DNA of 37,537 bases, from the NCBI GenBank assembly GCA_902551735.1, contig CACDEK010000004.1:1-37537 (forward strand), in the 5' to 3' direction. Below are positions 1 through 20,042 of this stretch, one piece after another (position 1 is the stretch's first letter; each line of letters starts with the position of its first letter). The stretch comes from an uncultured Pelagibacteraceae bacterium. GTDB taxonomy: Bacteria > Pseudomonadota > Alphaproteobacteria > Pelagibacterales > Pelagibacteraceae. Below the pieces are notes generated by a model, which did not search any database, was not told the origin of the DNA, and saw nothing but the letters and a program-made list of their open reading frames with translations. A program made the translations under genes and the position numbers.

Positions 1-108
1 GACTGGAGTTTTGCATCAGCTATGGGACTTATGCTGCTAACAGGTGTTTTAGTTGTTTACTGGATTTATAACAAACTTGTTGGAATCGATAATATTAAAT
101 TAGGATAG
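1..108 (+). CDS. ABC transporter permease, C-terminal fragment (PotB type)
   Basis: The window opens inside this gene. Frame 1 reads DWSFASAMGLMLLTGVLVVY and ends IDNIKLG before a TAG stop. This is one last membrane helix plus the short cytoplasmic tail typical of PotB/PotH-type permeases of spermidine/putrescine-family importers. The next gene, a PotC-type permease, starts 8 bases later, as in pot operons. The fragment is exactly the piece missing from the chimeric permease at 16165-17640 and duplicates none of it, so both are probably halves of one gene (inference). Family assignment rests on a short sequence and on context. Confidence 0.75.
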   Translation, partial: DWSFASAMGLMLLTGVLVVYWIYNKLVGIDNIKLG

Positions 109-116
109 AGATAAAT

Positions 117-971
117 ATGGCTTTACCAAAATATACAGAAACTCGTTATAGAATTTGGCACTATACATATTTAACAATTTGTAGTTTTGTATTTTTCTTT
201 TTAATAGCTCCATTGTTTGTAATTTTTCCTCTGTCATTTAATGCTGAAGAATTTTTAGTTTTTTCAGATGGAATGAAAAGACTTGATCCTGATGCTTTTT
301 CTTTAAGATGGTATCATGATATGGTTTACGGTACTAAAAATCCATGGGGACTTGCAGCAAAAAATAGTTTTATTATTGCAATATTCGCAACGATGGGAGC
401 TGTATTACTTGGAACAGTTGCTGCTTTAGGGTTAAGCAGTAGACATATGCCATATAAAGGATTGATAATGGCAACTTTAATTTCACCAATGATTGTTCCT
501 CTTATTATTTCAGGAGTCGCAATTTTCTTTTTTATTGCAAAAATTGGATTGGCAGCAACACATCTTGGAATTATTATAGCCCACATAATATTAGGAACTC
601 CATTTGTGGTCATTACTGTTACTGCTACGCTATCAGGTTTTGATCACAGTGTAACTAGAGCCGCAGCAAGCCTTGGAAGTGATCCTGTTAATACTTTTAT
701 GAAAATAACTTTACCTTTAATTTTACCCGGAGTTATATCCGGCGCATTGTTTGCATTTGTTACATCTTTTGATGAAGTTGTGGTAGTTTTATTTTTAGCA
801 GGATTAGACAATACAACAATACCAATTCAAATGTGGACTGGTTTAAGAGAACAATTAAGCCCAACTATACTTGCTGTTGCTACTTGTTTAATTGTTCTTT
901 CGACGCTAATACTTGTTACTGCAGAACTTTTAAGAAGAAGATCTGAAAGAATAAGAGGTATTAGTAGATAA
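117..971 (+). CDS. ABC transporter permease, PotC/PotI type
   Basis: This inner-membrane subunit of a spermidine/putrescine-family ABC importer has 284 residues, the usual length. An N-terminal helix (about residues 17-38) is followed by a periplasmic loop and five further helices. The cytoplasmic EAA-type loop that docks on the ATPase is visible near residues 180-205 (TRAAASLG...LPLILPGV). It follows the permease fragment at 1-108 by 8 bases. Its natural partners (ATPase, binding protein and the first part of the PotB permease) are at 16165-20042 on the other strand. The operon therefore appears split by an inversion or assembly break. The substrate cannot be read from the sequence; polyamines or related amines are the family norm. 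Confidence 0.88.
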   Translation: MALPKYTETRYRIWHYTYLTICSFVFFFLIAPLFVIFPLSFNAEEFLVFSDGMKRLDPDAFSLRWYHDMVYGTKNPWGLAAKNSFIIAIFATMGAVLLGTVAALGLSSRHMPYKGLIMATLISPMIVPLIISGVAIFFFIAKIGLAATHLGIIIAHIILGTPFVVITVTATLSGFDHSVTRAAASLGSDPVNTFMKITLPLILPGVISGALFAFVTSFDEVVVVLFLAGLDNTTIPIQMWTGLREQLSPTILAVATCLIVLSTLILVTAELLRRRSERIRGISR

Positions 972-7644: not shown

Positions 7645-9099
7645 ATGGGTAAATCTTCTAAACTATACAATAAAGATTTAGCTCCAACACCAAGTAGTGA
7701 AAAAAAGTGGGGTTGGTTTGAAATCTTTAACGTATGGGCAAATGATGTACAAAGTTTATTTGGATATACTTTGGCAGCATCATTATTTTTAGCCTCAGGG
7801 CTAAATGGTTGGGCTGTATTTATAGCATTAATCCTTGCAGGATTTTTTATAATGTGGCTTGTCAACTTATCAGGTAAACCAAGTGTTAAACATGGTATTC
7901 CTTACCCGGTATTTGCAAGAGTTAGCATGGGCGTATTTGGAGCAAACTTTCCAGCCATGGCTAGAGGACTTGTTGCAATGTTTTGGTATGGAGCACAGAC
8001 TTACGCAGCTTCAACAGCTGTAGCACTTTTAATAACTGCTATTACTGGAATACAAGGGGAAGTAATGTTCCTTGGAATGACAGGTGTAATGTGGGTATCT
8101 TTTATATTTGTGTCTGCATTTCAAGTATATTTATTCTGGCAAGGTGTAGATCTTGTTAGAAGATTCTTAAATTTTGCAGGACCTGCTGTTTATGTTGTTA
8201 TGTTAATTTTAATGATAGCAATATGGGCTAAAGCTGGCGGAGGACTGTTATCAGAAGTTGGTGAAATATTTTCTGGTGGAGCGCGTTCTGGTGGTTTTGA
8301 AGGTTTAGGATCATTTGGAGCTTTCTTAGCTGTATTTTCGATTATGGTTGGTTATTTTGCAGCAGTAGTAATAAACTTTGGTGACTTCGCTAGATTTGTT
8401 AAAAATGAAGATGAAATGAAAAAAGGAAATCTATGGGGATTAGTAGGTAACGTTGTTTTCTTTTCATTTATAACTTTAATGATTACTGGAGGAACAATTG
8501 CAATATTCGGAGAATATATTGCACAACCCACAGATATGGTTGCAAAAGTAGACAATCTACTTTTAACTATTATTGCAGCTTTTGCATTCTTTGCAGCTAC
8601 AGTTGGTATTAATATGGTTGCTAACTTTATACCTCCTGCATATGACCTTGCTAATTTAATGCCTAGCAAAATTAATTTCAGAATTGGTGGACTAATAACT
8701 GCAATTTGTGGATTTATAATTGGAGGAATGTGGGTAGCGGTAATTACTAAAATGGGAATGTTTCCATTTGTTAATACGCTTGGAGCAATTTTAGCACCAG
8801 TGTTTGGTATAATGATTGTCGATTACTATATAATAAAAAAACAAAAACTAGATGTAGATGATTTGTTTTCAGAAAGTGCTAGTGGAAAATATCACTACAA
8901 TGGTGGTTTTAACGGAAAGGGAATGTTAGCTTGGGCATTATCTGGTTACATTGCAGTTGGATCCGTATGGCCAAACATACTAGTTTTAGGACTTGGTGAT
9001 TTCTTCGCTAATTTAGGCGGAGGTGGTGGATATGCTTGGATGATAGGAGCAGCATTAGGTGCTATCATTCACTTAGCTATATCTGGTAGACAAAAGTAA
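7645..9099 (+). CDS. NCS1 family nucleobase/allantoin-type cation symporter
   Basis: This inner-membrane transporter has 484 residues and about 12 hydrophobic segments. NCS1 hallmarks are clear: an N-terminal WGWFEIFNVWANDVQSLFGY, then KHGIPYPVFARVSMGVFGANFPA and FWYGAQTYAAST, which line the substrate path in Mhp1-type proteins. Family members import hydantoins, allantoin, uracil, cytosine or thiamine with Na+ or H+. The substrate here cannot be assigned. The gene is monocistronic: 163 bases separate it from the aldehyde dehydrogenase gene, and a strong terminator follows. The neighbouring 5-oxoprolinase genes make a cyclic amide substrate possible but unproven. Confidence 0.85.
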   Translation: MGKSSKLYNKDLAPTPSSEKKWGWFEIFNVWANDVQSLFGYTLAASLFLASGLNGWAVFIALILAGFFIMWLVNLSGKPSVKHGIPYPVFARVSMGVFGANFPAMARGLVAMFWYGAQTYAASTAVALLITAITGIQGEVMFLGMTGVMWVSFIFVSAFQVYLFWQGVDLVRRFLNFAGPAVYVVMLILMIAIWAKAGGGLLSEVGEIFSGGARSGGFEGLGSFGAFLAVFSIMVGYFAAVVINFGDFARFVKNEDEMKKGNLWGLVGNVVFFSFITLMITGGTIAIFGEYIAQPTDMVAKVDNLLLTIIAAFAFFAATVGINMVANFIPPAYDLANLMPSKINFRIGGLITAICGFIIGGMWVAVITKMGMFPFVNTLGAILAPVFGIMIVDYYIIKKQKLDVDDLFSESASGKYHYNGGFNGKGMLAWALSGYIAVGSVWPNILVLGLGDFFANLGGGGGYAWMIGAALGAIIHLAISGRQK

Positions 9100-9160: not shown

Positions 9161-9934
9161 TTAATTAAATTTTTTCATTTTATTTAATGGTTTTAATATC
9201 AAACCATTTGACAATAAATTTTCTTTTATTGATTTAGCTGTTGCAAGAGAACTTAGATTGTCTCCGTGTATACAAACAGAGTCAATTTCACAAGGTATTT
9301 GTTTACCAGAAAAACAGTTTAAAGCTTGATTTTTAACCATACTGAGCACATGTTTTTTTGCTATTTCAGGATCAGTTATTAAGGCGTGTTCTTTTGATCT
9401 TGATACAAGATTTCCATTATCTTCATAGTTTCTATCAGCGAAAATTTCACATGCTATTTTCATATTTAATTTTTTAGCAGCAATTTCCATTTTAGATCCT
9501 GTAGGTGCAAGAAAAATTATGTTTTTATCAATACTGGATATTGCTTTAGCAATAGTATTTGCCAAATCCAAATCTTCACAAGCCATATTGTTAAGCGCTC
9601 CATGAGGTTTTATATGAGTTACATCTTCGTTATTTTTTAAAGCTATTTTTTGTAAAATTTCGTATTGATCAATAATTAATTTAGTTACTTCTGAAGAAGA
9701 AAGATTGATTCTTTTCCTACCAAAATTTTCTGGATCCTTAAATGATGGATGGGCTCCAATACTTACACCGTTTGCTTTAGAAATTTTAATAACCATGTTC
9801 ATTGTTTCATCATCTCCAGCATGATAACCACATGCAATATTAGCTGAATTAACTATATTCAGTAACTCAGGGTCATTTTCAATAGAATGAAACTTTGATT
9901 TTTCTCCTAAATCACAATTGATATTAATTTCCAT
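9161..9934 (-). CDS. pxpA: 5-oxoprolinase subunit A (LamB/YcsF family)
   Basis: PxpA works with PxpB and PxpC to open 5-oxoproline (pyroglutamate) to glutamate with ATP. I place the start at the ATG at 9932-9934, giving 257 residues that begin MEININCDLGE, the conserved LamB/YcsF opening. The track's 10 extra residues are not family-like. Other family signatures are ANIACGYHAGD, GAHPSFKD, HIKPHGALNN and FADRNY. It is divergent from pxpB, with only 28 bases between the start codons, so one short control region must serve both directions. Splitting pxpA from pxpBC onto opposite strands is less common than a pxpABC operon. Confidence 0.9.
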   Translation of the reverse strand: MEININCDLGEKSKFHSIENDPELLNIVNSANIACGYHAGDDETMNMVIKISKANGVSIGAHPSFKDPENFGRKRINLSSSEVTKLIIDQYEILQKIALKNNEDVTHIKPHGALNNMACEDLDLANTIAKAISSIDKNIIFLAPTGSKMEIAAKKLNMKIACEIFADRNYEDNGNLVSRSKEHALITDPEIAKKHVLSMVKNQALNCFSGKQIPCEIDSVCIHGDNLSSLATAKSIKENLLSNGLILKPLNKMKKFN

Positions 9935-9962
9935 AATATTAATAGTTGAAGTATAACACGAC

Positions 9963-10637
9963 ATGATAAAAAATATATCAAATCTTGGTGACGCAGCATT
10001 ATATTGTGATTTTGGTGAAGAAGTTAATAAAGAAATTAATTCAATAGTAATTAATTATTTTAACAATATAAAAGAAAAAAAAATTTTAGGAATTACCAAT
10101 ATTGCTCCCTCATATAACAAATTAATTATAACTTTTGATTTAAGCTTAACAAATTTTGACAAAATAAGTGAGATAATAAAAGGTATAAATATAAAACCTT
10201 ACGAAAACAGTAAAAATAAATTAATAAAAATTCCTATATGTTGTGATGACGAGTTCGCATTAGATATTGATAGACTTGAAAAAAATTTTGAAATTTCAAA
10301 AGATCAAATCCTAAAAACTTTTTTTTCTAAAGAATATTTTTGTTACATGACAGGTTTTATTGCAGGTATGCCTTTCTTAGGAGATATTGATCAAAACATC
10401 AGATTAAAAAGATTAGAAACTCCAAGAGTAAAAGTTCCCAAAGGATCTGTAGGTATAACAGAAAAATTTTGCAATATCTATACATTTGAAAGTCCAGGTG
10501 GTTGGAACATTATTGGAAACTCACCAATAAAAGTTTTTGATAAATCCAATAAGGTAAATCCGGCTCTAATTAATCCTGGTGATACTGTTAGTTTTTACAA
10601 AATTAATATGAAAGAATATAAAAATTGGAATGAGTAA
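9963..10637 (+). CDS. pxpB: 5-oxoprolinase subunit B (KipI family)
   Basis: This 224-residue cytosolic subunit resembles the N-terminal part of allophanate hydrolase subunit 1. Recognisable elements are GDAALYCDFG at the start, GFIAGMPFLGDID and the conserved PRVKVPKGSVGI...ESPGGWNIIG. With PxpA and PxpC it forms the ATP-dependent 5-oxoprolinase. The stop overlaps the start of pxpC by 8 bases, implying translational coupling. Confidence 0.88.
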   Translation: MIKNISNLGDAALYCDFGEEVNKEINSIVINYFNNIKEKKILGITNIAPSYNKLIITFDLSLTNFDKISEIIKGINIKPYENSKNKLIKIPICCDDEFALDIDRLEKNFEISKDQILKTFFSKEYFCYMTGFIAGMPFLGDIDQNIRLKRLETPRVKVPKGSVGITEKFCNIYTFESPGGWNIIGNSPIKVFDKSNKVNPALINPGDTVSFYKINMKEYKNWNE

Positions 10638-11580
10638 TTATAATTTTCAAGTTTTGCGAGCAGGAATAAATACTACTTTTCAAGATAAAGGTAGAAATAA
10701 TCTTTATCATATAGGAATACCTTTTAGTGGAGCAATGGATAATCGTAATTACCTAATAGCAAACTATTTAGCTGGTAATAAAAAAAATACAACAGTTATA
10801 GAATTTGCTTATCAAGGTCCATTATTAAAATTTAATGGTGAAAAAATTTGTTTAGTAATAACAGGGGATGTAACTTTTAATATTATAAAAAAAAATTTAA
10901 ATGTAGAAAAGGGAAACTGTTATCAATCATATTATCTTACAGATGGTGACCAAATAGATATTTTATCAACCAATAGATCGGTTTATGGTTATTTGGCAGT
11001 AAGTGGAGGTTTTAACGTTGAATTATTCTGGAATAGCAGTTCCACAAATACTAAAGCAAGAATAGGAGCTAATAATGGTGAAAAGATTAAAAAGGATAGT
11101 TTAATAGAAATATTAAAACCCCAAAAAATTTATCCGTTAAAAAAATTGAAATATTTCAATTCAAAAATCGAGCAAATTAGAATTATTAAAGGAACTAACT
11201 ATAGTTATTTTTCAAAAGATGGAAAAAAAAATTTTTTGGAAAAAAAATTTATTGTTTCTAAATTAACGGACAGAATGGGTATGAGATTAGAGGGCCCTAA
11301 AATAGAAAATATTGTTGATACAAATATAAGATCTGAAGGTTTAATTAAAGGAGTAATACAGGTACCACCGGATGGAAATCCAATTATTATGCTGTCTGAT
11401 CATGGAACAATAGGAGGTTATCCTAAAATTGGAGTAGTAATTAGTGCTGATTACGATAAGTTAGTTCAACTTCAGCCAGGATCAAAAATAAAATTCAAAG
11501 AGGTAAGTCTTTTTGAAGCAGAGAATTTATACAAAATATATTCTATGGAAACACAAAATATACTAAATCAAATAACATGA
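10630..11580 (+). CDS. pxpC: 5-oxoprolinase subunit C (KipA family)
   Basis: This 316-residue third 5-oxoprolinase subunit is of the biotin-dependent carboxyltransferase-like KipA/urea amidolyase family. The diagnostic N-terminus INTTFQDKGR...GIPFSGAMD is present, as are SGGF, MGMRLEGP and a C-terminal LSDHGTIGGYPKIGVV. It overlaps pxpB by 8 bases and the downstream EamA transporter by 4 bases (ATGA), so the three are one transcript. Recycling of 5-oxoproline to glutamate would recover nitrogen and carbon from an amino-acid damage product or from dissolved organic matter. Confidence 0.9.
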   Translation: MSNYNFQVLRAGINTTFQDKGRNNLYHIGIPFSGAMDNRNYLIANYLAGNKKNTTVIEFAYQGPLLKFNGEKICLVITGDVTFNIIKKNLNVEKGNCYQSYYLTDGDQIDILSTNRSVYGYLAVSGGFNVELFWNSSSTNTKARIGANNGEKIKKDSLIEILKPQKIYPLKKLKYFNSKIEQIRIIKGTNYSYFSKDGKKNFLEKKFIVSKLTDRMGMRLEGPKIENIVDTNIRSEGLIKGVIQVPPDGNPIIMLSDHGTIGGYPKIGVVISADYDKLVQLQPGSKIKFKEVSLFEAENLYKIYSMETQNILNQIT

Positions 11581-12443
11581 ATTTAATTTCTAAATTACCA
11601 GGTCCTTTACTGGTTTTTTTTGGAGCTATTACACTTAGTTTTGGTGGAATAATTGTAAAATCTTTTGAAGGTGCAAATCTTTGGCAAATACTTTTTTGGA
11701 GACAAATTTTTTTTTCAATTACTGTTGTTTTATATTTACTTTTTACCTATAAAAAAAATTTTTTTAAATCATTTTATGACTCCGGTTTACCAGGTTTTTT
11801 TGGTGGTTTAGCATTATCAGTTGGATTTGCAGCATATGTATTTGCCATGTATACAACTACTGTAGCAAATACAAATTTTATAATTACTTTAGAGACAATT
11901 TTTTTAGCATTGTTTGGTTATTTTTTTCTAAAAGAAAAAATTAATTTAATCACATTAATCTCAATAATTTTAGGAATATCTGGAGTTTTAATAATACTTG
12001 GAAACTCTTTAACTATTCAAACTAGCGAACAATTTTTAGGAAATATTGTTGCACTTATAATGCCAATATCTTTTGCTGTGCTTGTTATTATTGTTAGAAA
12101 ATATCCAAATGTAGATATGGTTCCATCTCAATTCACCGCCGGAATTGCAGCAGCATTAATAGGTTTTTTTATAGCTGACCAATTAATTATGTCATTTAAA
12201 GATTTTATTTTGGCTTCTATAGCTGGAATTTTTCAAATAGGATTTGGGTTTATTTTTATTACAGTAGGTTCGCGCACAACACCTGCGGCCGTAGTTGGGG
12301 TTTTAATGTTAACAGAGTCTGTTTTCGGTCCCTTATGGGCATGGCTTTTTATTAATGAAGTGCCACCCCTGACTGTACTTTTTGGTGGTGGTGTGATTAT
12401 TTCTGCAATTTTATTCCAGTCAGTTTTTGGTAAAAAAGAGTAA
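11577..12443 (+). CDS. EamA/DMT superfamily transporter
   Basis: This 288-residue membrane protein has about ten hydrophobic segments arranged as two EamA repeats. The first repeat ends around ANTNFIITLETIFLALFGYFFLKEKI, and the second ends at VLMLTESVFGPLWAWLFINEVPPL. Both show the glutamate-plus-basic ending that marks the repeat. Drug/metabolite transporters export or import small metabolites, and the substrate is not predictable. It is coupled to pxpC through an ATGA overlap, so transport of an amino acid or 5-oxoproline-related compound is a contextual guess only. Confidence 0.85.
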   Translation: MNLISKLPGPLLVFFGAITLSFGGIIVKSFEGANLWQILFWRQIFFSITVVLYLLFTYKKNFFKSFYDSGLPGFFGGLALSVGFAAYVFAMYTTTVANTNFIITLETIFLALFGYFFLKEKINLITLISIILGISGVLIILGNSLTIQTSEQFLGNIVALIMPISFAVLVIIVRKYPNVDMVPSQFTAGIAAALIGFFIADQLIMSFKDFILASIAGIFQIGFGFIFITVGSRTTPAAVVGVLMLTESVFGPLWAWLFINEVPPLTVLFGGGVIISAILFQSVFGKKE

Positions 12444-12444
12444 A

Positions 12445-13689
12445 ATGAAAATTGCTGTAATTGGTTCTGGCATATCGGGTCTAAGTGCTGCTTATTATTT
12501 ATCAAAAAAACATAATGTTGATTTATTTGAAAAAGAAAATCATTTTGGTGGCCATTCTCATACTATAAATGTTGCTTATACTGAAAAAAAACAAATACCA
12601 GTAGATATAGGTTTTATTGTTTTTAACGAATTAACTTATCCAAATTTAATTAATTTTTTTAAAGAAAATAAAATTCAAGTTGAAAAAAGTAACATGTCTT
12701 TTTCTGTTTCTGTAAAAGATACAAATATTGAATATTGTGGTAAAGGAATTAGTGGAATTTTCTCGAACAGAAAAAATTTTTTTAATTTTAAATTTATAAA
12801 AATGTTTTTTGAGATTATTAATTTTTACAAAAAATGCTCAAATATTGATTTTAATACTCTTAGTAGCGAGACATTAGAAAATTTTTTAAAAAAAGAAAAT
12901 TTATCTGACTACTTTATAAACTATCATATTATCCCCATGGTTGCTGCGATATGGTCTATGCCACCATATGAAGCGAGACAAATGCCACTAAATTTTTTTA
13001 TAAATTTTTTTAAAAATCATGGTTTATTTAATTTAAAAAATAGACCTCAGTGGTTTACTGTATCAAATAGAAGCAAAACTTACGTAAATAAAGTAATTAA
13101 TCAAATAAGTGGAGAGTATTATAAAAACTACGCTATAAAAAAAATATCAAGAAATAATAATAATATTAAAGTTTACTATGGATCAGAAAATGAGTTTTTT
13201 AACTATGACAAGGTAGTTTTAGCTACTCATGCAGATCAAGCCTTATCTTTAATAGAAAACCCTTCCTTGGAAGAGAAAAATATTTTAAAAAATTTTAAAT
13301 ACAAAAAAAATTTAGCAGTCATTCATTCAGATCAAAGTTTTATGCCAACTAACAAAAAGGCTTGGTCTTCATGGAATTCTTCAATTCTAAAAAACGATAA
13401 AACTAAAAGTTCAGTAACATATTGGTTAAACTTATTACAAAATCTTAAAATAGAAAAAAATATTTTTTTAACTTTAAACCCGTACTACGAAATTCCTAAG
13501 AATCAAATTTATGAAAAGGTTCATTTTACACATCCTTACTATGATTATAATGCTTTAAAATCTCAAAATGAACTTAGTATATTACAGAACAAAAAAGATA
13601 TATTATTTTGTGGTAGTTATTTTGGTTACGGATTTCATGAAGATGGCATTAAATCAACTCTAGAAATGTTAAAGTATATAAATGATTAA
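12445..13689 (+). CDS. FAD-dependent amine-oxidase-like oxidoreductase
   Basis: The track start at 12427 would overlap the previous gene. The ATG at 12445 gives 414 residues opening with the dinucleotide-binding motif (AVIGSGISGLSAAYYL) and the following GG motif (FEKENHFGGHSHT), so I use it. The fold is the flavin amine oxidase/desaturase type. It heads a tight set with DUF1365, a cyclopropane-fatty-acid-synthase-like methyltransferase and DUF3833. That combination recurs in proteobacteria, where the flavoprotein is thought to act on fatty acyl chains of membrane lipids, as in furan or methylated fatty-acid formation. Role inferred from synteny. Confidence 0.82.
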   Translation: MKIAVIGSGISGLSAAYYLSKKHNVDLFEKENHFGGHSHTINVAYTEKKQIPVDIGFIVFNELTYPNLINFFKENKIQVEKSNMSFSVSVKDTNIEYCGKGISGIFSNRKNFFNFKFIKMFFEIINFYKKCSNIDFNTLSSETLENFLKKENLSDYFINYHIIPMVAAIWSMPPYEARQMPLNFFINFFKNHGLFNLKNRPQWFTVSNRSKTYVNKVINQISGEYYKNYAIKKISRNNNNIKVYYGSENEFFNYDKVVLATHADQALSLIENPSLEEKNILKNFKYKKNLAVIHSDQSFMPTNKKAWSSWNSSILKNDKTKSSVTYWLNLLQNLKIEKNIFLTLNPYYEIPKNQIYEKVHFTHPYYDYNALKSQNELSILQNKKDILFCGSYFGYGFHEDGIKSTLEMLKYIND

Positions 13690-14449
13690 CTCTTCGTTTA
13701 TTTATAATGGTAATGTAATTCATAAAAGATTTAAACCTAAAGAACATTTTTTTAAGTACAAAGTATTTTCTCTTTTAATTGATTTGTCTGAATTAAATTT
13801 ATTAGAAAAAGAACTTAAATTATTTTCGTATAATAAATTTAATATATTAAGTTTTTATGACATTGATCATGGTCCAAGAGATGGAACTTCTTTAATTACA
13901 TGGGTTAAAGAAAATTTGTCCAAAAATAATATAAATACTGAACAAATCACTATTAAACTTCTATGTTACCCTAGAATATGGGGTTATGTATTTAATCCAC
14001 TAAGTGTATTTTTCATTTATGATAAAAATTTTAATTTGATATCAATTCTTTACGAAGTAAAAAATACATTTGGAGAGCAACACACGTATATTTTTAAAAT
14101 AGAAAAAAATAATCATTTATTTGAACATTCTTGTAAAAAAAAATTTCATGTTTCACCATTTATTGAAATTGACTGTACATATTTTTTTAAAATTTTAAAA
14201 CCTGAAAACAAACTTTCAATAGTTATTAATCAAAATGATGATCAAGGAAAACTTCTCTTTGCCTCCCAAGATGGCGAAAAAAAAGATTTAAATAGCAAAA
14301 ATTTGCTAATTTCATACTTATCTCACCCTTTAATGTCCTTTAAAATTATTGGGGCGATACATTTTGAGGCATTAAAACTTTGGTTAAAAGGAGTTAAGTT
14401 GGTAAAAAAGAAACTCAAAATTAAAAATAATATAACTTTTGAAAATTAA
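13682..14449 (+). CDS. DUF1365 family protein
   Basis: This 255-residue cytosolic protein is recognised as DUF1365 by its start (FIYNGNVIHKRFKPKEHFFKYKVF), by PRIWGYVFNPLSVFF and YDKNFNLISILYEVKNTFGEQHTY, and by a C-terminal SYLSHPLMSFKIIGAIHFEALKLW. It overlaps the flavoprotein gene by 8 bases and is followed after one base by the Cfa-like gene. DUF1365 is found almost always beside these two partners, so it probably serves the same lipid modification. No activity can be read from motifs. Confidence 0.82.
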   Translation: MINSSFIYNGNVIHKRFKPKEHFFKYKVFSLLIDLSELNLLEKELKLFSYNKFNILSFYDIDHGPRDGTSLITWVKENLSKNNINTEQITIKLLCYPRIWGYVFNPLSVFFIYDKNFNLISILYEVKNTFGEQHTYIFKIEKNNHLFEHSCKKKFHVSPFIEIDCTYFFKILKPENKLSIVINQNDDQGKLLFASQDGEKKDLNSKNLLISYLSHPLMSFKIIGAIHFEALKLWLKGVKLVKKKLKIKNNITFEN

Positions 14450-14450
14450 T

Positions 14451-15626
14451 ATGATCCAAACTTTTTCTGATAATTTAATTTTTAGTGCATTAAAGCTTAT
14501 TAAGCATGGAAATCTTGAATTAACAAATTTTGATGGCAAAAAGTACAATTTTGGAGAAAAAGATAAAAATTTAAATGTAAGTTTAAAAATCAATAAACCT
14601 GGGTTTACTTTTAACGTAATTCGAAAGGGTAGTATTGGTCTTGCAGAGTCATACATGCGTGGGGAGTTTGAAACAAATAATCTTTCAGATTTAATTGAAT
14701 TAACAGCAAAAAATATCAAAATTATTTATAAATTTTCCGGTATATTTGATTTTACACTTATTAATTCTATAAAAAGTGTTTTTATTAAAAATACAAAAAA
14801 AAAAAGTATAGAAAATATTTCAAAACATTATGACCTTGGAAATGAATTTTTTTCTTTGTGGCTTGATAAAACTCTTACATACTCAAGTGCGATATTTGAA
14901 AATGAAAAAAATAACCTTGAAGATGCACAAATAAACAAATATCAAAAATTAGTTAGTCTTTTAAAACCAAAAATGGGAGATAAAATTTTAGAAATAGGTT
15001 GTGGCTGGGGAGGATTTGCAGAATACCTAGGTAAAAACTTTGATATAAAAATGGATTGTATTACTATTTCTAAGAAACAATTTGAATTTTCAAAAGAAAG
15101 AATATTTAAAAACAAGCTTAATGAAAAAGTTAACATACAAATGATGGATTATAGAGATGTTAAAAATAAATATAATTCGATCGCATCTATCGAAATGATA
15201 GAAGCAGTGGGAAAAAATTATTTAAAAAGTTATTTTCAAAAAATTAAAGAAAATTTAGGCCAACAAGGAGTTGCAGCGATACAAGCAATAACGATAGATG
15301 ATAAATTATTTGATAGATATAAAAAAAAAGAAGACTTTATTCAAAAATATATATTTCCTGGTGGATTTTTACCTTCAAAAAAAAGTTTATATAAATATGC
15401 TAAAGACTCGGGCTTAAGTATGGAAGAGTATAATTCATATGGATCGCATTATTCAAATACATTAAATATTTGGAGAGGTGAATTTATTAGTAAATGGGAA
15501 GAAATTTCAAAACAGGGGTTTGATTTGACTTTCAAAAGAATGTGGAATTTTTATTTATCTTATTGTGAAGCTGGATTTAAATCTAAAAATATAGATTTAA
15601 TTCAGTTTTCGATGCAAAATAGATAA
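14451..15626 (+). CDS. Cyclopropane-fatty-acyl-phospholipid synthase-like methyltransferase
   Basis: This 391-residue SAM-dependent enzyme acts on unsaturated fatty acyl chains of membrane phospholipids. I chose the ATG at 14451, one base after the DUF1365 stop. The track uses a TTG at 14439 inside the previous gene. The SAM-binding motif KILEIGCGWGGFAEYLG is near residues 178-194. Cfa-family markers SKHYDLGNEFFSLWLD, TYSSAIF, FPGGFLPS and NIWRGEF are present. Known relatives in such clusters make cyclopropane, or methylated precursors of furan fatty acids, so the exact product is open. Confidence 0.87.
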   Translation: MIQTFSDNLIFSALKLIKHGNLELTNFDGKKYNFGEKDKNLNVSLKINKPGFTFNVIRKGSIGLAESYMRGEFETNNLSDLIELTAKNIKIIYKFSGIFDFTLINSIKSVFIKNTKKKSIENISKHYDLGNEFFSLWLDKTLTYSSAIFENEKNNLEDAQINKYQKLVSLLKPKMGDKILEIGCGWGGFAEYLGKNFDIKMDCITISKKQFEFSKERIFKNKLNEKVNIQMMDYRDVKNKYNSIASIEMIEAVGKNYLKSYFQKIKENLGQQGVAAIQAITIDDKLFDRYKKKEDFIQKYIFPGGFLPSKKSLYKYAKDSGLSMEEYNSYGSHYSNTLNIWRGEFISKWEEISKQGFDLTFKRMWNFYLSYCEAGFKSKNIDLIQFSMQNR

Positions 15627-15631
15627 TAGTA

Positions 15632-16168
15632 ATGAAAAAAAAACTACTTTTATTTTTTTTAATATTTGTAATTTTTTTTATATTTTTAAATAAAGACGAT
15701 ATGAAACCAGAAGATTTTAAAAACACCGAACCAGTGATGCGAATAGAAAGTTATTTTGATGGAAATGTCAAAGCTTGGGGTATTTTACAAGATAGAAAAG
15801 GTAAAGTTACAAGGCAATTTAAAGCTAATATGTTTGGAAAATTTGAAGATAACATGCTTACACTTGATGAAGAATTTTTTTGGAAGGATGGAGAAAAACA
15901 AAAAAGAATTTGGAAAATTAAAAAAATTGATGAACATAATTATATAGGTACTGCTCCGGATGTCGTTGGAGAAGCGAAAGGATTTTCATATGGTTCTGCA
16001 TTTAAATTTGAATATGATTTATTAATACCTATAAAAGGAAAAAATATTAAAATTAGATTTGATGATTGGATATTTAAACAAGATGAAGAAGTTGCAATTA
16101 ATAGAGCAACATTAACAAAATTTGGTTTTAAAGTTGGTGAGTTAACAGTAGTTTTTCAAAAATATTAA
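15632..16168 (+). CDS. DUF3833 family lipoprotein-like or membrane-anchored protein
   Basis: This 178-residue protein has a hydrophobic N-terminal helix (LLLFFLIFVIFFIFL), so it is anchored or secreted. The rest matches the DUF3833 pattern: PEDFKNTEPVMRIESYFDGNVKAWGILQDRKG, FKANMFGKF, then LDEEFFWKDGEKQKRIW and WIFKQDEEVAINRATLTKFGFKVGELTVVF. It follows the Cfa-like gene after 5 bases. In proteobacteria DUF3833 accompanies this lipid cluster, often together with an SDR. The C-terminal half of an SDR does lie convergently next door, and the two stop codons overlap at TTAA. Confidence 0.8.
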   Translation: MKKKLLLFFLIFVIFFIFLNKDDMKPEDFKNTEPVMRIESYFDGNVKAWGILQDRKGKVTRQFKANMFGKFEDNMLTLDEEFFWKDGEKQKRIWKIKKIDEHNYIGTAPDVVGEAKGFSYGSAFKFEYDLLIPIKGKNIKIRFDDWIFKQDEEVAINRATLTKFGFKVGELTVVFQKY

Positions 16169-17640
16169 CGACCAACTAGTTTCATTCCTTTTTTTACAAG
16201 TTTTAAATAAAGCCAATTAGGCATAATTTGTAAAATTTTCATAATAAACGTAAATTGTTTTGGAAAATGAATTTCAAAAGCATTCGATTGAGTTAAACCC
16301 TTAAACATTTGATTGGCAGCATACTCTGGTGATTTTATCATAGGCATAGGAAAATCATTTTGGTCTGTCATAGGAGTTTTTATAAATCCAGGGTGTACAA
16401 CAGAAACTCTTACGTCAAATCTTTTTAAGTCAAAATATAAACTTTCGGCGTAATTAGTTAATGCAGCTTTAGATGCACAGTAAGCACCACCTGCTGGGAG
16501 ACCCCTATATCCAGCCACTGATGAAACTATTGAAATATGTCCAGATGCACCACCAACCAGAGCAGGAGTAATGTAATATCCAATTGCAAGTATAAATACT
16601 AATAAACAACCTGCTCCTATACCGGGTATTGTTAATGGGAAATAAACTTTCCAAAAAGCTACAAAAGGCGTGCCTCCTAAAGATTTACCTGCTCTCATTA
16701 AGCTAGGAGATATTGTTTTCATAACGCTATACAAAGGTAATACCATAAAAGGCAAAAGAATTTGCGTCATAGCTATATAGGTACCAGTTTTATTATACAT
16801 CATCTCTGGCCTACTATCGTCACCAACCAATCCTATCCAAACAAAAAAGTCATTTACAATGCCTTGTTGTTGTAACAAAATCATCCAACTCGCTGTTCGC
16901 ACAAGTAAAGAAGTCCAAAAAGGTAAAAGAACACAAATCATTAATAAATTACTGTATTTCATTGGTAGTGTTGCTAACAAATGTGCAATTGGATAACCCA
17001 TTAAAAAACAAAGAATTGTCACAACAACAGCTACCTCTAGAGTTCTTAACCAAAGTATTCTATGTATTCTTCTATCCTCTTCTACTTGAACAACTTTTCC
17101 ATCCTCATCAAAATACATATCCATACCCTTTAGGTATTTTCCCGCAGTATACGGAGGAGCTGTTCTTTTTATTGCTTGCCAATATTTAACATCCCTAAAT
17201 CTTTTATGAACTGCCATAATTTGTTCTTTAACATTACCTTCCTCAAATTTTTTCATTTTTCTCCATAACTTTTTGAGAATTGTATTAAATCCATTTTTTT
17301 CTTTATTTAGCCTTTGACCTAGTTTTCCGTGTTCTTTTTTTTCAGCAAGGGCTTTGAAATCCGATAAAAAACTAGCAAAAACTTCTTCTGAAGGTAGTTC
17401 TTTTCCATCCCAAGTTTCCATTGCTTTAAATGTTTTGGGCAACATATTTGTAACCATTCTGTCATCGATACTTCTTGTAAACATTTCACCTATTGGAAAA
17501 ATATAAGTAATAATTATAAAAAGTAGTAATGGAGCAACTAAAAGAAAAGCTTTAATTTTATTTTTCTTTTCTGCTTTTTTTAGACTTACCTCTAGCGGGA
17601 TTCCGTCTGTAGTTAAAATTTTTTGTGTTTCACTGCTCAT
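16165..17640 (-). CDS. Chimeric ORF: PotB-type permease N-terminal part fused to SDR C-terminal half
   Basis: Residues 1-367 are a PotB-type ABC permease. There is a first helix (about 30-50), a large periplasmic insert (about 55-195), further helices, and the EAA loop LMRAGKSLGG...FPLTIPGI. At ALVGGASG (residues 361-367) the permease stops and a short-chain dehydrogenase begins: IVSSVAGYRGLPAGGAYCASKAAL, with catalytic Ser and Tyr387/Lys391, to the end at 491. The SDR lacks its TGxxxGxG Rossmann half, and the permease lacks its last helices, so neither part should work. The SDR end is tightly convergent with DUF3833, which suggests it is in its native place. The missing permease end matches 1-108. 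An inversion or assembly join is the best explanation; a genuine fusion protein is unlikely. Confidence 0.85.
   Translation of the reverse strand: MSSETQKILTTDGIPLEVSLKKAEKKNKIKAFLLVAPLLLFIIITYIFPIGEMFTRSIDDRMVTNMLPKTFKAMETWDGKELPSEEVFASFLSDFKALAEKKEHGKLGQRLNKEKNGFNTILKKLWRKMKKFEEGNVKEQIMAVHKRFRDVKYWQAIKRTAPPYTAGKYLKGMDMYFDEDGKVVQVEEDRRIHRILWLRTLEVAVVVTILCFLMGYPIAHLLATLPMKYSNLLMICVLLPFWTSLLVRTASWMILLQQQGIVNDFFVWIGLVGDDSRPEMMYNKTGTYIAMTQILLPFMVLPLYSVMKTISPSLMRAGKSLGGTPFVAFWKVYFPLTIPGIGAGCLLVFILAIGYYITPALVGGASGHISIVSSVAGYRGLPAGGAYCASKAALTNYAESLYFDLKRFDVRVSVVHPGFIKTPMTDQNDFPMPMIKSPEYAANQMFKGLTQSNAFEIHFPKQFTFIMKILQIMPNWLYLKLVKKGMKLVGR
16531..16554 (-). other. Chimera junction between permease and SDR sequence
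   Basis: The change from permease-like to SDR-like protein falls within GGASGHIS. Both families plausibly carry a similar stretch here (GGxSGxMIS in PotB-type permeases, GxGHIxxxSS in SDRs), so a short shared DNA word may mark the breakpoint. The exact base cannot be fixed without intact relatives. Confidence 0.65.
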
Positions 17641-17709: not shown

Positions 17710-18825
17710 TTATAGACCAGCTTTCATAGCTTCCCATTTTTCACCAAGCTCTGTGCCGTTATCAGCCCAAAAGAATGGGTCAACTAGGAAGTAATTTTTT
17801 GTGTTTGCTGGCGCTGTTGGCATATGTGGTACCATGTTTGTTTTACCATCTTTATACCAAGGCTCTCCTGCTTTCATAACTTCGATAGAAGATTTTCTCC
17901 AAGGAGCGTAAGCAATATACTTAGCGCTTCCAGCTAACATTTCTGTGTTAGTCATCATAGAAAGAGCTTTCATAGCGTTTTCTTGATCTGGACCACCTTT
18001 AACAAGTGCAAAATATTCATAGTCAAGACCTTGAGCGTCCCAAACTTGAACGATCGGTGCACCTTCTCCAACTGTAGCGTTAAAGAATCTTCCGTTCCAA
18101 CCAGTTGCCATAACAACTTCACCACTCATTAATAATTCTGGTGGTTGAGCACCTGCTGACCAAAACACACAACCTCCGTTAGGATCTGTGCAAAGTTTTT
18201 TGATCTTATCCATTGCTCTTTTAACACCTTTTTCAGTGTTTAAAGCTTCATAGATTTTTGCTCCGCCTTTTTTTGGTTTAATACCATCTGCTGCTAAAGC
18301 AATCTCCAGGTTTGTTAGAGCAGATTTATAGATAGCTCTTTTTCCAGGAAATTTTTTAGTGTTAAAAAAATCTTTTATAGTTTTTGGAGTACCTTTAACA
18401 TTGTCGCTGTTATAAGCATAGTTCCAAGAATATAAAATATTTCCTACAGCACATTTACTAGGCATTGAAGTGAAGAAGTCTTCACTTGCAGGTGTACCAT
18501 CTGGAGCTGCTGGAAAGTCTTTGTCAAAATCAAATTCAACAAATATACCTTCGTCACATCCATTAATTGTATCAAATGCAAATACGTCAATTATATCCCA
18601 TACAATTGCACCTGCTTCCTTTTGTGCTTTAATTTCCGATAATCCACCCGAGTAGTCTACCCAGTTAATTTCTATGCCTAATTTTGCAGCAGTAGGATCA
18701 CCGTACCCTAATTTTTGAGACTCTGTATAAGCTCCACCCCAAGATGCAATAGTAACTGCAAATGCAGATGAAGTTATAGAAAGAGCAAAAGATAGAGCAA
18801 GTAACAATTTACTTAATTTTTTCAT
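17710..18825 (-). CDS. Periplasmic substrate-binding protein, PotD/PotF type
   Basis: This extracellular solute-binding protein of the spermidine/putrescine family has 371 residues. A signal peptide is visible (residues 1-23, ending SSAFA), followed by VTIASWGGAYTESQK, the family's first strand. Later family features include WDIIDVFAFD, NILYSWNYAYN, FPGKRAIYKS and VVMATGWNGRFFNA. The ATG is preceded by a GGAGG Shine-Dalgarno 4 bases upstream. A good promoter lies in the 128-base gap upstream and a hairpin follows the gene, so it is set up for expression above the other transporter subunits. The ligand is not predictable: polyamines are the family default, but neighbouring ectoine-type hydrolases raise other amines. 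Confidence 0.9.
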   Translation of the reverse strand: MKKLSKLLLALSFALSITSSAFAVTIASWGGAYTESQKLGYGDPTAAKLGIEINWVDYSGGLSEIKAQKEAGAIVWDIIDVFAFDTINGCDEGIFVEFDFDKDFPAAPDGTPASEDFFTSMPSKCAVGNILYSWNYAYNSDNVKGTPKTIKDFFNTKKFPGKRAIYKSALTNLEIALAADGIKPKKGGAKIYEALNTEKGVKRAMDKIKKLCTDPNGGCVFWSAGAQPPELLMSGEVVMATGWNGRFFNATVGEGAPIVQVWDAQGLDYEYFALVKGGPDQENAMKALSMMTNTEMLAGSAKYIAYAPWRKSSIEVMKAGEPWYKDGKTNMVPHMPTAPANTKNYFLVDPFFWADNGTELGEKWEAMKAGL

Positions 18826-18953: not shown

Positions 18954-20042
18954 TTACTTTGGGTCTAATGCTCTTGCGTCTTGGCTATTCCAACCAACGT
19001 TAATTTCATTCCCAAGTTTTATATCCATCCTCGCAGAACTATTAGGAACCTTAAGTATAAAGTCTTTATTGCCTAACAAATCTAATCTAACTCTTGTGTG
19101 ATCGCCATGGTAAATGACTTCTTCTATTTTACCTTTATGTTTATTATCCATTTTATTTTCAGGGTCTATAGTCGCTCTCTCAGGTCTTAAAGAAACAATA
19201 GTTCTTTCACCTTTTGATTTTACTCTAATCGGATTTGAAAATATTTCTACACCAGAATCTAATTTAACCTTGCACTTGTTTTCTGATATATCTGTGACCT
19301 CTCCTGAAAAGGTATTATTCTCTCCAATAAACTCAGCTACGAAAGAATTTACAGGTTCTTCATAAAGTTTGTCTGGACTTGAAAGTTGTTGAACCTTACC
19401 ATCATTAAATACTGCTATTCGATTTGACATTGTTAAAGCCTCACCTTGATCGTGAGTAACGTAAACTACAGTAACGCCAATACTTTCATGTATATGTTTT
19501 ATTTCATATTGCATACTTTCTCTTAAATTTTTATCTAAAGCTCCTAACGGTTCATCCATTAGTACTACTTGAGGATCAAATACTAAAGCTCTTGCTACAG
19601 CTACTCTTTGTTGTTGCCCACCAGATAATTGTCCTGGCATTCTTTTTTCAAAGCCTGAAAGTGAAACCATTGATAAAACTTTATCAACTTTTTTATCTAT
19701 TTCATCTTTTGCAATTTTTCTAACCTTTAAAGGAAATGCTAAATTTTCATAGACAGTCATATGAGGAAACAAAGCATAGTTTTGGAAAACCATTCCAATT
19801 CCTCTTTTATGAGGGGGAATATTTGAAATAGGATTTTGATCTAAAAAGATTTCTCCATTAGTTGGTGTTTCAAATCCTGCTAACATCATAAGGCATGTTG
19901 TTTTTCCAGAACCAGAAGGTCCCAACATTGTTATAAATTCACCCTCTGCAATATTTAAATTTAAATCTTTAACTACTAAAATTTTACCATCGTAGCTTTT
20001 ATCAACTTTATCAAATTTAACGAATTCCTGGTTCTTTGACAT
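18954..20042 (-). CDS. ABC transporter ATP-binding protein, PotA type
   Basis: This 362-residue cytosolic ATPase energises the Pot-type importer. Walker A is GPSGSGKTT (41-49), the signature is LSGGQQQR (139-146), Walker B is VLMDEPLGALD (160-170), and the switch histidine lies in VYVTHDQGEAL. A TOBE-type C-terminal domain (about 245-360) is typical of PotA/MalK relatives. It lies upstream of the binding-protein gene, separated by 128 bases with its own promoter. In the restored order the transporter reads ATPase, binding protein, PotB, PotC. Confidence 0.92.
   Translation of the reverse strand: MSKNQEFVKFDKVDKSYDGKILVVKDLNLNIAEGEFITMLGPSGSGKTTCLMMLAGFETPTNGEIFLDQNPISNIPPHKRGIGMVFQNYALFPHMTVYENLAFPLKVRKIAKDEIDKKVDKVLSMVSLSGFEKRMPGQLSGGQQQRVAVARALVFDPQVVLMDEPLGALDKNLRESMQYEIKHIHESIGVTVVYVTHDQGEALTMSNRIAVFNDGKVQQLSSPDKLYEEPVNSFVAEFIGENNTFSGEVTDISENKCKVKLDSGVEIFSNPIRVKSKGERTIVSLRPERATIDPENKMDNKHKGKIEEVIYHGDHTRVRLDLLGNKDFILKVPNSSARMDIKLGNEINVGWNSQDARALDPK

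Follow-up and report, generated by a model that had tools for sequence, protein, structure and literature searches.

The locus raises the question of why a potB gene should stand in two pieces on opposite strands of one contig, with its front joined in frame to half of an SDR gene and its end placed at the contig's first base. The window analysed here is the entire contig G000:C4 (37,537 nt, from base 1) of a SAR11 assembly, G000, which comprises 856,006 nt in 60 contigs (mean contig 14,267 nt, about 14.3 kb) at an estimated completeness of 63.5%. As the window is a complete contig, the assembly holds no sequence to the left of position 1. The nearest listed relatives of the genome are Pelagibacteraceae mostly bearing names of single-cell isolates (AG-/AH- type). 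We infer a single-cell origin for the source genome, as well as its amplification by MDA (multiple displacement amplification) and an in vitro origin of the join. With a probability of roughly 0.87, the split potB is an inverted MDA chimera in an incomplete SAR11 genome and not a real rearrangement.

The contig opens within the 3' end of potB (1..108, plus strand), which encodes 35 residues followed by a TAG stop at 106-108. The translation of positions 1-105, DWSFASAMGLMLLTGVLVVYWIYNKLVGIDNIKLG, matches the full-length PotB of relative G020 over residues 383-417 with 100% identity. An intact gene for the permease subunit PotC follows on the same strand (117..971), with an ORF of 284 aa covering positions 1-181 of 184 in the BPD_transp_1 profile. 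PotC shares 92-97% identity with its counterparts in relatives, where potC likewise lies directly 3' of potB. The initial annotation had read this region as the end of a PotB-type permease with PotC behind it, and both the match to G020 and the intact PotC bear this out. The front of PotB lies about 16.5 kb from the tail on the opposite strand, in a chimeric ORF (16165-17640, minus strand) that is open and in frame over 491 aa and passes from PotB into the C-terminal half of an SDR. Its 5' potB part (16540..17640, minus strand; residues 1-367) shows 94% identity to residues 1-369 of G020 PotB. The in-frame SDR piece (16165..16546, minus strand), which runs from residue 126 to the end, shows 82% identity to residues 126-250 of the G015 SDR. 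This piece lacks the cofactor-binding N-terminal half, as adh_short covers only profile positions 119-189 and the N-terminal Rossmann TGxxxGxG region is absent. The permease domain of the chimera is incomplete as well, with BPD_transp_1 positions 3-136 of 184 represented versus 3-176 in an intact relative, and the remainder, minus 15 residues, is encoded by the tail at 1-108.

Alignment to full-length G020 PotB places the two permease pieces at residues 1-369 and 383-417, which confirms that they belong to one potB. Against a full-length PotB, exactly 15 residues (45 nt) are absent between the pieces, a stretch that reads TLISNQIAYHMKATL in G020. In a scan of 109 relative loci, in which some genomes are represented twice, 104 have the motif and every one of these shows 15 residues between GGASG and the DWSFAS-type motif; the other 5 fall outside the pattern used. 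A gap of 15-25 residues had been estimated beforehand; the measured value sits at the lower edge of that range, and the chimera is short of nothing but the tail and these 15 residues.

The operon continues behind the chimera with potD (17710..18825, minus strand; SBP_bac_8) and potA (18954..20042, minus strand; ABC_tran and TOBE_2). Relatives carry the order potA-potD-potB-potC, contiguous and co-directional, whereas the window has potA-D-B' and potB''-C on opposite strands. In 78 of the 80 loci that bear a name, potB leads into potC, and the remaining two show no potC. The genes resemble a PotABCD-type spermidine/putrescine ABC transporter operon in having an ATPase, a substrate-binding protein and two permeases with matching Pfam domains, for a putative substrate of this kind. 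They differ from such an operon in that one piece of potB lies at the contig start and the other inside the contig in inverted orientation.

Between the two potB pieces lies a conserved block (9161..16168) of pxpA(-), pxpB, pxpC, EamA, FAD oxidoreductase, DUF1365, Cfa and DUF3833, which is followed in relatives by an intact SDR gene on the minus strand. The whole block from pxpA to the SDR occurs in G034 in the order and orientation of the window, and the part from the FAD oxidoreductase to the SDR is also found in L056, G008, G012 and G016. The SDR C-half of the window adjoins DUF3833 and is oriented as in the Pelagibacteraceae loci that have an SDR beside FAD oxidoreductase, DUF1365, Cfa and DUF3833, but in contrast to those loci the window's assembly lacks the first 125 SDR residues. 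In L056, a single contig holds potA-D-B-C, three ORFs that by eye resemble glycine-cleavage genes, FAD oxidoreductase-DUF1365-Cfa-DUF3833 and an intact SDR (minus strand). If the part of such an arrangement that lies between the potB and SDR break sites is inverted, the order of the window results. An inversion, as proposed in the initial annotation, is involved, and the block of 1-16.5 kb is reversed relative to the potA-potD-potB front when compared with relatives.

A few further features of these loci were recorded. In the window, NCS1 (ending at 9099) stands beside pxpA (starting at 9161) with a terminator-like hairpin between them, a pairing absent from the relatives' loci checked. Because of this adjacency, the block of 1-16.5 kb may itself contain a second join at NCS1/pxpA or have been rearranged naturally. 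The DUF1365 gene of L056 (17905-18670) was matched as two pieces (residues 1-154 and 156-255), possibly through a frameshift or a sequencing error. Homologues of the FAD oxidoreductase in G004, G005, G023 and G031 each have one in-frame TAA in the match.

The junction between potB' and the SDR (16540..16546, minus strand) contains at most 7 nt (ATCTGGA) that can be assigned to either parent. The chimera reads GCATCTGGACATATT at the join, the PotB of relatives reads TCNGGNAC at the matching site, and the SDR of the closest relatives reads AA[AG]TCNGGNCA. The microhomology of up to 7 nt was deduced from the codons of relatives and not from the strain's own intact parents. A 72-residue peptide spanning the join was searched against 397 genomes of the family and, among the matches listed, was matched end to end in G000 only (E-value 3e-43). 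The next match (8e-19) covered residues 1-37 only. A spanning match in another genome would rank at the top of such a listing, and none of the 396 other genomes spanned the PotB/SDR join among the matches listed. No repeat pair was present at either breakpoint among the repeats listed.

The fate of the SDR N-terminal half bears on what lies beyond the contig's first base. The initial annotation had predicted an SDR N-terminus directly left of position 1, fused to the potB tail, and we consider this unlikely. A search of the 63.5%-complete assembly for the first 125 SDR residues recovered only other SDRs at 24-31% identity. The FAD oxidoreductase, one of the usual right-hand neighbours of the SDR in relatives, likewise found only matches of 23-29% in the assembly. 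A homologue of SELO, another right-hand neighbour of the SDR in relatives, is present on G000 C10 at 66%, and no further SDR neighbours were matched around it. The SELO match consequently did not place the SDR N-half. Near its N-terminus, this SELO-like gene (G000:C10:7739-9177, L141) gave two matches that overlap, possibly reflecting a frameshift.

The source cell's genome most likely carries an unbroken potA-D-B-C operon of the ordinary kind and a complete SDR gene. In the course of whole-genome amplification, the 3' end of a displaced DNA strand within potB would have re-primed on a nearby strand at a short match in the SDR gene, and synthesis would then have continued in the reverse orientation. 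From potB, the assembler's path would cross the inverted junction into the SDR C-half, return along the 16.5 kb block as far as potC and the tail of potB, and halt where already used potB sequence would be re-entered. A single artefactual fold-back would then account for both the chimeric ORF and the seemingly missing half at the contig start, which would be its two ends. To the left of position 1, the cell's own DNA would continue into the rest of an intact potB, in place of the predicted SDR N-terminus.

Published MDA chimeras resemble the window in several respects. About 85% of MDA chimeras are inverted, most carry 2-21 nt of complementarity, and at least 2 nt occur at the join in 76.8% (Lasken and Stockwell 2007, PMC1855051). 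The second segment of the window has the reverse of its normal orientation in the genome, the junction complementarity of at most 7 nt falls within the published range, and both parts stem from one genome neighbourhood. For the GORG-Tropics single-cell workflow, benchmark cultures gave a mean of 1.5 misassemblies in every 100 kb (PMC11247762), so that one misassembly in a 37.5-kb contig would be unremarkable if the genome was produced similarly. The window differs in its inferred span of 16.5 kb and in being known from an assembled contig, not from reads. In inverted MDA chimeras, the joined points lie less than 10 kb apart in 83% and more than 10 kb apart in 17%, and junction complementarity is rarer in chimeras spanning more than 10 kb (PMC1855051). 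In the inferred normal order, the points joined in the window are separated by about 16.5 kb, more than in most published inverted MDA chimeras, for which less than 10 kb is typical and not required, and this counts against an artefact. A plain fold-back in the assembly graph might also let the contig overlap the junction, but the contig instead stops 45 nt short.

The alternative of a real, strain-specific chromosomal inversion of about 16.5 kb that broke within potB and within the SDR gene, with a contig that ended by chance at the second breakpoint, appears improbable. The block is reversed relative to relatives and the SDR N-half is absent from the rest of the assembly, both as such an inversion would have it. 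It would destroy both genes, yielding potB'::SDR_C and SDR_N::potB'', and a streamlined SAR11 cell would be left without this polyamine-type uptake system. The simultaneous loss of potB and the SDR argues against it, as do the absence of the join from every other genome searched and breakpoints without a repeat pair among the repeats listed. The position of the contig end weighs most. A distance of 45 nt separates the contig end from the far side of the potB break, and the chance that a random contig end would fall this close is about 0.3% (45/14,267, a rough estimate). A fold-back walk must reach the other side of the break and stop there, so an amplification chimera accounts for the contig end and a real inversion does not. 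This is the strongest point in favour of an artefact.

Two further explanations carry very little weight. The assembler alone could have misjoined potB and the SDR gene with no chimeric molecule involved, yet the common sequence at the join amounts to about 7 nt at most. With so little overlap, k-mers of the usual length could not link the two genes unless a chimeric molecule was present. The misassembly rate of the GORG-Tropics workflow on benchmark cultures speaks for an assembler misjoin. A functional new fusion protein, with the permease front and the SDR C-half as one product, is equally remote despite the 491-aa ORF being open and in frame. The SDR piece lacks its cofactor-binding half and the permease piece the end of its domain, and the join occurs in one assembly only. 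Two incomplete domains and a unique join led us to reject this candidate.

With an amplification chimera as the preferred reading, the split of potB is an ordinary finding and a gene-fusion annotation should be avoided. Neither a PotB-SDR fusion nor a lost transporter should be annotated in this genome. A simple flag for such artefacts is a gene cut by an inverted join within a contig, with its remaining half lying at an end of that same contig. In further support of an artefact, a similar fold-back is found in pxpB/pxpC of the sibling genome G015, where contig C34 (L157:1-1608) starts at pxpB residue 128, carries pxpC up to residue 143 and there passes, in inverted orientation, into residues 1-33 of pxpB.
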